A DNA stretch of 64,000 nucleotides, taken from assembly GCA_013216135.1 (NCBI GenBank), contig JABSOS010000014.1:1-64000 (forward strand), given 5' to 3'. Numbering within the stretch: the first letter of the stretch is position 1; the number at the start of each line of letters is the position of its first letter. Positions 41,378 through 44,744 of the stretch are shown in pieces. Made by a program: the position numbers and the translations under genes. The notes under the pieces are model-generated. The model worked only from the letters and a program-made list of their open reading frames with translations, was not told where the DNA came from and did no database searches. The DNA comes from Candidatus Caenarcanales bacterium (lineage in GTDB: Bacteria > Cyanobacteriota > Vampirovibrionia > LMEP-6097).

Positions 41378-43177
41378 ATGAAATACAAAAGTATTCCTGA
41401 ATTATTTATAACTAAAGCTCAAAGATTCGGTGAGAAGACATTAGTTCGTTACCAGCAGAGAGCTAATTCTGATCTGGAATCAATTAGTTGGAATGAAATT
41501 TATGATCATGTAGAGTCTATCAGCCTTGGCTTAGCCAAGCTTGGCGCTAAAGCCAAAGATAATATCGGGTTACTTTCTATCACTAATCAGAAATGGATGT
41601 GTTGTGACCTTGCGGTTCTAAGCCTTGGTGCTTGTACAGTTCCTCTCTACCACAACTGTTCAGAGGATGCTATTTTCCATATTATTAATCACGCTCATCT
41701 TGATTATGTTTTCGTTCATAATAAAATTCAATTACAGAAAATTAGAACCAATTTTGATAAATTAGAAAATCTAAAATATGTAATCGTCCTAGATGACCGC
41801 GGCGACATTCCTAAAAATCAACCTAGAATCATTACTCTCGATGATATTTTAAGAATTGGTGAAAAAGAGAAAAAAGATAAGCCAAATCAATTTAAAGATC
41901 AAATCAAAAAAATTAATGATGATGATTTAGCCACAATCATTTATACATCAGGAACGACAGGAATTCCTAAAGGTGTACCTTTAACTCACAAAAACTGCTT
42001 ACTTGCAGCATTATCAATCTACGAATACGTTCCGCTGCATGATAAGCATCGCATGCTGTCTTTTCTTCCTTTAGCTCACGTATTTGAAAGAGTTTGTGGT
42101 GAGCTTTATGGCTTAGATCAAGGTTTAACCTTTGTCTATTGCCCAGTCCCAGAAGATATTCCGAAATTACTTCATGCTGAAAAAATCACAATGATGCTAG
42201 TAGTACCTCGTATTTTAGAGAAGATGTACGCCAAGATTATGGGTGAACTTCAAAAGCAACCTGAAATGATCAAAGATACCATTCTCAAAGCCATTGATTT
42301 CGGTATCAATTACCATAAAAAGAAAATAGCAAATAAGCCAATCTCATTCTTAGAAAATATCGCTTATACTACTGCTAAAAAGACATTACTAGCAAAAATC
42401 AAAAATAAATTAGCTCCTCATTTAGAATTTTTCGTTTCCGGTGGAGCTCCACTAAACCATGAGATTTCTTATTTCTTCAAAGCTATTGGCATAGAAGTTT
42501 TAGAGGGATATGGCTTAACTGAAACGGCTGCACCTCTGACTGTTAATCCTTTATTAAGGAATAAAACAGGTACAGTAGGAATACCTTTTGGACACTTCGA
42601 TGTAAAACTGGGTTCAGATAAAGAAATTCTCTGCCAAGGACCTTCACTTTTCCCTGGCTACTATAAAGATGAAGCTGCTACAAATGAATGTATCATTGAT
42701 GGTTGGTTCCATACAGGTGACCTCGGAGAGTTCGATGACGAAGGGTATTTAAAAATCATCGGAAGAAAGAAAGATTTGCTTATCACCGCTGGTGGTAAAA
42801 ACGTTGCACCAACTAAAATTGAACATAAGCTATGCCAAAGCAACTTTATTAATCAAGTCGTAGTTGTCGGTGATAGAGAGCGCTATTTAGCAGCTTTAAT
42901 AGTTGTAGATAAAGACTATCTCTATAAATGGAACGAAGATAGTGACACTAAGTTAGATTTATCAGGAAAACTATCTGAAAGTGGTGACCTGAATGAACTA
43001 ATTAGAGATGAGATAGATAAAAATAGCATCGGTTTAGACAACTATGAAACTATCAAAAAATTTGCAATCCTAGATGAAGAGCTAAGTATAGATGGAGGTG
43101 AATTAACGCCAACAATGAAAGTTAAACGTAATGTAGTTAATGAAAAGTATTCAGAGTTAATAGTTAATTTATTTTAA
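41378..43177 (+). CDS. long-chain acyl-CoA synthetase (AMP-binding)
   Basis: Intact 'TIIYTSGTTGIPKGVPLTHKN', 'EGYGLTETAAPLTVNP', 'DGWFHTGDLGEFDDEGYLKIIGRKKDLLITAGGKNVAPTKIE'. Confidence 0.95.
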   Translation: MKYKSIPELFITKAQRFGEKTLVRYQQRANSDLESISWNEIYDHVESISLGLAKLGAKAKDNIGLLSITNQKWMCCDLAVLSLGACTVPLYHNCSEDAIFHIINHAHLDYVFVHNKIQLQKIRTNFDKLENLKYVIVLDDRGDIPKNQPRIITLDDILRIGEKEKKDKPNQFKDQIKKINDDDLATIIYTSGTTGIPKGVPLTHKNCLLAALSIYEYVPLHDKHRMLSFLPLAHVFERVCGELYGLDQGLTFVYCPVPEDIPKLLHAEKITMMLVVPRILEKMYAKIMGELQKQPEMIKDTILKAIDFGINYHKKKIANKPISFLENIAYTTAKKTLLAKIKNKLAPHLEFFVSGGAPLNHEISYFFKAIGIEVLEGYGLTETAAPLTVNPLLRNKTGTVGIPFGHFDVKLGSDKEILCQGPSLFPGYYKDEAATNECIIDGWFHTGDLGEFDDEGYLKIIGRKKDLLITAGGKNVAPTKIEHKLCQSNFINQVVVVGDRERYLAALIVVDKDYLYKWNEDSDTKLDLSGKLSESGDLNELIRDEIDKNSIGLDNYETIKKFAILDEELSIDGGELTPTMKVKRNVVNEKYSELIVNLF

Positions 43178-43192
43178 GGTATTAATTAATAA

Positions 43193-43405
43193 AAGGTGGC
43201 ATCTAGATTTGCTATTTTCGACTGAAGTCGAGTCAAGCGCATGCTTGCATGCATTTGTGTGCGAAAGTCTTAAACACGGAGTATCCCCGCAGCGAAGCTG
43301 ACAGGGTATTACACAAATCTAGAGAAACACTTTGTGTTTCTGAGCCTTCACAATCAGTGAGTGAAAGCTCTCCCTCCCAAATAGCTCAGGCTACGATGCC
43401 ACTTT
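43193..43405. repeat. highly structured intergenic element (candidate palindromic repeat or ncRNA)
   Basis: Outer helix AAAGGTGGCAT (43193-43203)/ATGCCACTTT (43396-43405), CTAGATTTG (43203-43211)/CAAATCTAG (43314-43322), hairpin AGAAACAC-TTT-GTGTTTCT and a GTATCCC..CAGC-GAA-GCTG..GGGTAT stem. Confidence 0.55.
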
Positions 43406-43412
43406 CGAACTC

Positions 43413-43904
43413 CTAATAACCATACCTATATATTCTAAAAATGTTATTAGACTGAATCTGATTCATATCCATTCTCACTAAGCGTAACTGATAAGGTCTA
43501 CAATCAGCACTACATCTAAGCATGCTTAAATCTACAGGTGAGCCTGGTGGTCCTTCAATTAAAGCAAAAACGTGATTCGCGTCATAAGGTCTAACACTAA
43601 CCCCATCAACAGCAACGATTTTGTCACCGACACGAACTCCAGCTCTTTCAGCAGGAGTATTCGGATAAACTTGAATTACTGTACTTTCAGAATTTTGTCG
43701 ATGTAAGTACTTTACGCCTAATATCCCCTTGTTTGATTTTTCATAAGAAGATTCAGAACTGTTAGCTTGAAGTTTAAAAGTTTGGGCGTGACTACAATTA
43801 AAACTTGAAAATAGCAAGCTTAATAGTAATAAAACTATATATAAGTACTTATCAGCAAATAAGTTATATTTTTTAGCGATTGATTTAGCCTTAGTTCTGT
43901 ACAT
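43413..43904 (-). CDS. PDZ-domain protein with N-terminal membrane/signal segment
   Basis: 'LLGVKYLHRQNSESTVIQVYPNTPAERAGVRVGDKIVAVDGVSV' type PDZ sequence after a hydrophobic N-terminus. Confidence 0.8.
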   Translation of the reverse strand: MYRTKAKSIAKKYNLFADKYLYIVLLLLSLLFSSFNCSHAQTFKLQANSSESSYEKSNKGILGVKYLHRQNSESTVIQVYPNTPAERAGVRVGDKIVAVDGVSVRPYDANHVFALIEGPPGSPVDLSMLRCSADCRPYQLRLVRMDMNQIQSNNIFRIYRYGY

Positions 43905-44025: not shown

Positions 44026-44631
44026 CTATCTAGAGTAATACTCAACGATCATGATCTCATTTACAGGAACTGGAATTTCTTTTCTTACAGGAACTTCAAC
44101 TAATTCACCAACGAATGAATCTTTTTCTCTTTTAACATAAGCTAAAGTATCAACCCAGTTCTTCATAGATTCGATAACAGCTGGGATTTTACGAGATTTT
44201 TCTTTAACACTAACTACATCACCAGGGTAAAGTCTGTATGAAGGAACATCTACTTTATAACCATTTACTAAAATATGACCATGAGTAACTAATTGTCTAG
44301 CTGCTGCAGTCGTGTTAGCAAAACCTAATCTGAAAACGATGTTATCAAGTCTAGTTTCTAAAAGTTGCATAAGAACTTCACCAGTAGAACCTTTGCTTCT
44401 TCCAGCTTTATCTACATACTTTCTGAACTGTTTCTCTTGGATAACGCCATAGCTAAATCTAAGCTTTTGCTTCTCAGAAAGAAGGATGCTGTACTCAGAA
44501 GGCTTAGCTCTTCTTTGACCATGCATTCCTGCCTTATATGGTCTTTTTGCAATATCAAAAACAGGCATTCCATTAAGGACTTCGCCGTATCTTCTAGAAA
44601 GTTTATCTTTAGGACCTCTGTATCTAGCCAT
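44026..44631 (-). CDS. rpsD: ribosomal protein uS4
   Basis: '[19 protein letters not shown]', '[56 protein letters not shown]'. Start moved from 44655 to canonical MARYRG. Confidence 0.98.
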
Positions 44632-44744
44632 AGAGCAACAATGATAACTTATCAAGACGAGAAAAGCAAGAGAATTATGTTTTTATTTAATATTTGAAAC
44701 AAGTAGCTAGATTATAGCTATAAAACATGCGTTAAAATAGGAAT

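Follow-up and report, generated by a model that had tools for sequence, protein, structure and literature searches.

The block at positions 43188 to 43414 of the window (the whole 64,000-nt stretch of DNA that was analyzed) belongs to a family of mobile, nonautonomous, palindromic elements, and it is probably a degenerate copy of such an element of the IS200/IS605 type (Y1, HUH; PATE-like). The host is a member of "Ca. Caenarcaniphilales," a nonphotosynthetic cyanobacterium, whose assembly (G000) comprises 3.08 Mb in 52 contigs and is 92% complete; the window lies on contig C6, and the ribosomal protein S4 that it encodes is closest to those of Candidatus Melainabacteria/Caenarcaniphilales MAGs. 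A first-pass annotation had seen an elaborate intergenic structure here and proposed either a novel noncoding RNA (ncRNA) or a palindromic mobile repeat. The second proposal was borne out, as the block is multicopy, dispersed, sharp edged, and demonstrably inserted, and an apparent novel ncRNA is explained as a mobile repeat.

The block is strongly structured, as had been claimed: the plus strand from 43170 to 43430 has a folding energy of −76.9 kcal/mol, shuffles average −56.6 (standard deviation, 4.66; z = −4.35), and none of 200 shuffles equaled it. Every helix named in the annotation was found in the sequence, and the block does lie between convergent genes, which end at 43177 (plus strand) and 43413 (minus strand). 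Its limits, placed earlier at 43193 and 43405, had to be moved slightly outward. The features of this copy and its surroundings are as follows.

41378 to 43177, plus strand: gene for an AMP-binding enzyme, a neighbor convergent with the PDZ-domain protein gene
43188 to 43414, minus strand: mosaic copy of the element, 227 nt, with start AGGAGTTCG and end CCTTTTATT on the minus strand, delimited by alignment with seven full copies
43188 to 43192, minus strand: TTATT at the right end, the putative right cleavage site, belonging to the element
43192 to 43203, minus strand: first arm of helix P1, pairing with 43395 to 43405
43203 to 43322, minus strand: P4 arm, whose outer helix CTAGATTTG/CAAATCTAG encloses the right-end hairpin
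43213 to 43281, minus strand: extra segment of 69 nt within P4, absent from canonical copies
43285 to 43306, minus strand: right-end hairpin CCCTGTCAGC-ttc-GCTGCGGGG, imperfect, helix 8 of the covariation alignment
43307 to 43310, minus strand: AATA at the 5' foot of the right-end hairpin, a guide-like tetranucleotide with a presumed role (cf. PMC5934647)
43323 to 43341, minus strand: P3 hairpin AGAAACAC-aaa-GTGTTTCT, present in the full copies of this genome and absent from relatives of about 160 nt
43342 to 43394, minus strand: P2/P2a arm, 9 nt shorter than in canonical copies
43395 to 43405, minus strand: second arm of helix P1, pairing with the first
43413 to 43904, minus strand: gene for a PDZ-domain protein, a neighbor whose TAG stop codon ends in bases of the element
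43415 to 43419, minus strand: TTATT at the left flank (AATAA on the plus strand), the putative insertion target, kept in the flank

In the stop codon of the PDZ gene, the AG comes from the first two bases of the element; the gene ends in TAT-TAG with the element and would end in TAT-TAA, at the same place, without it. In the search for an empty site of the window copy, the sole S4-locus relative with a PDZ gene (L024) proved to differ in sequence downstream. Beyond the PDZ gene lie rpsD and a Mur ligase gene; the rpsD frame (44026 to 44655 of the window) is listed with a TTG start and extra residues ahead of MARYRGPK, and its true start is probably an internal ATG.

A whole-genome BLASTn search, the check that had been suggested for copy number, returned 14 matches including the block itself, all others being partial. 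In the genome, seven copies are full length (six have exactly 216 nt, the seventh 211 nt), and truncated or divergent ones lie at least on C4, C9, C32, C34 (at 98006 and at 200531), C50, and C51; the flanks of the copies are unrelated to one another. Written in the orientation of the minus strand of the window, the canonical element begins directly after TTATT with AGGAGTTCG-AATA and a 9-bp hairpin (CTCCTTAGC-tct-GCTAAGGAG), followed at intervals by CGAAC and AACAAAAG and then by P1. From P1, the right part continues through P2/P2a, P3, and P4 (AGATTTGC-GTAATA-hairpin-ATA-GCAAATCT) to P1' and CTTTTATT, the right end. Each full copy contains two hairpins with AATA ahead of each, the right one lying within the P4 outer helix, about 27 nt short of the right cut site. 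TTATT precedes the left end of every full copy and is found on both sides of each. Terminal inverted repeats are absent, as the ends, AGGAGTTCG and CTTTTATT, are not inverted copies of each other, and neither are those of relatives. The 216 nt have no conserved reading frame, most copies being closed by stops, and no transposase frame.

Compared by eye with the canonical copies, the window copy is without 49 nt that hold the left hairpin and its AATA, and it is probably immobile, the left hairpin having been lost. Its 69-nt extra segment forms two more hairpins (one with GCATGC, the other with CGACT and AGTCG), and this mosaic state accounts for the elaborate nest seen in the first-pass annotation; the copy at C34:98006 (L017) contains a related segment. 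Copy C12 has the P2/P2a arm swapped for a different, perfect helix of 19 bp. A very divergent copy at C51:101694-101881 (L083) keeps the pairing of P1, P2a, and P3 with other bases and has a plain A/T-rich hairpin where P4 would stand. A partial copy at C50:144865-145013 (L086) carries a long near-perfect palindrome (GAGTTTACAATATTCCGAAGC with GCTTCGGAGTATTGTAAACTC) that resembles the left end duplicated in inverse orientation.

Insertion is evident from the genes in which copies lie, as joining the flanks of copies through a single TTATT restores reading frames. On contig C5 (63215 to 63435; L065/L080), a full element stands in frame, as 72 open codons, within an aminotransferase gene (Pfam PF00155). 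The orthologues from three genomes of the same family (G001, G005, and G007) match residues 2 to 41 and 128 to 474 of the query; the two matches lie only a few residues apart in G005 and G007, and the insert is therefore missing from these orthologues. Copy C11 breaks a long frame, part of which matches DUF3370. Copies C12, C4, and C9 and the window copy are located at or near stop codons, where insertion costs little, since AATAA itself includes TAA. In other genomes, one element lies within a gene for a Y1 transposase of about 310 amino acids, bringing in an in-frame stop (G006:C57; L190, 1466 to 1628), and another (G019) lies directly behind the right end of a further element. We conclude that the element is mobile.

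A covariance model built from the seven full copies (R1) detected multicopy relatives of about 160 nt in other genera, and a model built from those relatives (R2) detected elements in 13 of the 197 genomes of the class, with up to 16 matches per genome. The range is restricted to two families, the window's own (G000, G002, G003, G006, and G008) and f6 (eight genomes); viral contigs, searched with one exact pattern, and plasmids, searched with blastn, gave no match. The relatives begin after TTATT with an AATA hairpin, AACAAA, P1, and P2, continue with P4 and its own AATA hairpin, and close with P1' and TTATT, TCATT, or TTATA. Some have AAAA in place of AATA with the same TTATT site; covariation between guide and site (AAAA with TTTAT) was apparent at first and was broken by other elements.

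The fold is real, and its base pairs covary across copies and relatives. Among the seven full copies, 11 of 72 pairs are changed on both sides, and P1 includes four pairs changed in this way among the host's own copies. The P4 outer helix, in which 43203 to 43211 pair with 43314 to 43322, covaries across genera (helix 7). A model-fitted alignment covers 44 distinct sequences: compensatory changes affect 32 of its 36 pairs, bases pair in 94% of cells, and the covariation score is 0.526, compared with 0.172 for shuffles and at most 0.09 with partners slid. This alignment follows the structure by construction, and relatedness among the sequences raises such counts, but structure-free alignments agree with it.

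The end signature of the element is also that of a resident insertion sequence. A 567-bp IS200 (L058, 1389 to 1955, contig C34; transposase NF033573, E = 3e−37) lies inside a flagellin gene, and its removal from the frame joins REIN to ELLVAQ; this flagellin copy looks broken, as does the IS200 itself. A second IS200 copy is decayed. The right end reads AATACTCCGCAGCTCTGCTGCGGGG-AATCG-TTATT, with the hairpin 5 nt from the cut site, giving the AATA-hairpin-TTATT layout that is common to the element. Its target is TTAAT, not TTATT. When the left hairpin of the element was compared with the IS200 right end, three of the four copies tested did better than all 1,000 shuffles, and the match of the C5 copy was weaker (63 of 1,000 shuffles as good); for the right hairpin and the IS200 left end, 0 of 1,000 shuffles was reached for copy C45 only. 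The IS200 of G018 has a right end of the same layout (AATACCCCGTAGCTTGCTGCGGGG-TTATT) and is matched by R2 (E = 0.0012). Judging from their sequences, both host copies look inactive: the transposase frame of one has stops, and the other, relative to its sister, has a frameshifting 13-nt deletion by which the conserved NQ after the catalytic tyrosine is gone. A Y1_Tnp match occurs more often in genomes with elements (9 of 13) than in those without (11 of 47; P = 0.006). This value carries no correction for kinship and takes as element-free those genomes that the R2 results do not name; G038 and G058 have elements and no Y1_Tnp match.

Single-strand transposition of the IS200/IS605 type is the best-supported mechanism, with the link to a transposase suggested by the common layout of the ends. 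The transposase of IS608 binds hairpins near the ends of that element, and the place of cleavage is set by a tetranucleotide at the hairpin's 5' foot (PMC5934647, PMC6006769). In the proposed mechanism, the top strand of the present element (minus in the window) would become single stranded, for example as lagging-strand template, and fold; a Y1 transposase supplied in trans would grip the left and right hairpins, and the AATA tetranucleotides at their 5' feet would direct the cuts to sites just 3' of TTATT, one in the left flank and one at the right end. Excision would leave one TTATT behind, and the element would reinsert on the 3' side of another TTATT. Its two ends may be held together by P1, a long helix, and by the multibranched core.

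More tentatively, the whole fold, with its three- or four-way junction, could be the working part rather than the end hairpins alone, either because P1 prepairs the two halves in single-stranded DNA and the element so draws its ends together, which we offer as a suggestion for why the core covaries, or because the top strand acts as RNA. If so, it would represent a new transposable-element architecture, conserved in two families of nonphotosynthetic cyanobacteria.

Returning to a Y1 transposase as the mobilizing enzyme, this might instead be a RAYT (REP-associated Y1 transposase) acting on a REPIN-like repeat rather than an IS200 transposase. RAYT-like genes do occur in several element-bearing genomes (G002, G003, G006, G008, G019, and G042), and the hairpin-plus-guide layout is common to REPs (PMC6006769). 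However, the 92%-complete G000 assembly contains no RAYT match, no element adjoins a RAYT gene save for the one inserted inside it, and in G019 and G042 the hairpins found with RAYT genes are of another, GTAG-headed kind, which makes this explanation unlikely. In those two genomes, the RAYT-like genes L149, L151, L148, and L153 are each followed by a GTAG-footed hairpin (GTAGRGAC with GTCYCTAC), and this is a separate REP system in family f6.

That the block is a functional structured RNA, namely, a host ncRNA or cis-regulator kept in several copies for the function of its fold, appears quite improbable. The strong covariation of the whole fold, core included, both within the genome and across two families is what such an RNA would show. 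The wobble pairs of the relatives also lean mildly to the top strand (39 G-T versus 15 A-C cells), but those of the host's own copies have no strand preference (14 versus 11), and wobble bias therefore does not decide which strand folds. Against an RNA function, copies interrupt genes, stand in frame in an enzyme gene, or lie at stops beside unrelated genes, always with TTATT boundaries; a host ncRNA, the other proposal of the annotation, is thus unsupported. The remark that no known RNA was recognizable holds true, as no Rfam family matches the block, and at both curated and permissive thresholds the element gave chance matches only; neither an Rfam hit nor a single-copy sequence devoid of covariation was found. 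A TnpB omega RNA was also rejected, as there is no partner TnpB and no PF07282 match in G000. As a separate observation, a fluoride riboswitch (RF01734, 40.4 bits) is present in G042 (L104, 2471 to 2547).

If the element were a miniature inverted-repeat element (MITE) moved by a DDE transposase that duplicates a 5-bp target of fixed sequence, the TTATT on both sides of each full copy would be accounted for, and these copies alone could not settle the question of target duplication. The relatives do: among 39 tabulated elements, the left site is TTATT in 35, whereas the right end is TTATT in 26, TCATT in 5, and TTATA in 4, varying by subfamily while the left site remains TTATT. The right TTATT is therefore not a target duplication but behaves as expected for a site owned by the element, and with terminal inverted repeats absent as well, a MITE is very unlikely. 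A bidirectional terminator between the convergent genes is hardly credible, for even though A and T runs border P1 and this copy stands at the end of the PDZ gene, where it may have a secondary terminating effect, a terminator scan gives one weak internal site and other copies lie within or upstream of genes, in keeping with the earlier remark that the structure is too elaborate for a terminator. An autonomous IS200/IS605 element was rejected, as there is no tnpA frame within the element, and so was an integron attC site, whose core-site motifs were not seen on reading by eye.

The element family is apparently undescribed, as the titles and abstracts of open-access literature on Melainabacteria repeats and insertion sequences and on Caenarcaniphilales do not describe it. 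Vampirovibrionia (Melainabacteria) thereby gain a family of hitchhiking elements, in which a 216-nt palindromic element can enter a protein gene as open codons and which provides a natural set of covarying folds with which to ask to what extent DNA structure is read in single-strand transposition.

Among known systems, the Rickettsia palindromic elements, which come from an unrelated taxon, resemble the element in being palindromic repeats able to enter protein genes without loss of frame. REP, BIME, and REPIN sequences with their RAYT (TnpA-REP) are likewise dispersed extragenic palindromes with a hairpin-foot tetranucleotide (PMC6006769, PMC8266576), but the guide of the element is AATA rather than GT[AG]G, the element is much longer and has fixed ends, and its own genome has no RAYT while those of its relatives carry other REPs. 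With IS200/IS605 elements (IS608 and ISDra2; PMC5934647), it shares same-strand hairpins near both ends, the 5'-foot tetranucleotide, a left hairpin lying about 14 nt inside its end, and an AT-rich target of fixed sequence on the 5' side of the left end, with a distinct right-end cleavage sequence; it differs in having neither tnpA nor tnpB, a right hairpin about 27 nt inside, and an internal P1 joining the halves. Closest are the PATEs of Haloquadratum walsbyi, which have no inverted repeats, target duplication, or transposase and carry IS605-like near-terminal palindromes (PMC3119063). The family shows most of the defining traits of PATEs: both are too short for a transposase and lack terminal inverted repeats and target duplication, both have near-terminal palindromes resembling those of resident IS200/IS605 elements, and both occur in terminal-only and core-deleted versions beside resident transposases that are mostly broken (PMC3119063). 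Unlike PATEs, the element comes from an unrelated taxon (the cyanobacterial phylum) and has as its core a conserved three- or four-way-junction fold that covaries across two families. The right palindrome of a PATE lies close to the right end, whereas that of the element lies well inside, about 27 nt from it, and is enclosed in the long P4 stem; we therefore file the element as a variant of the PATE type.
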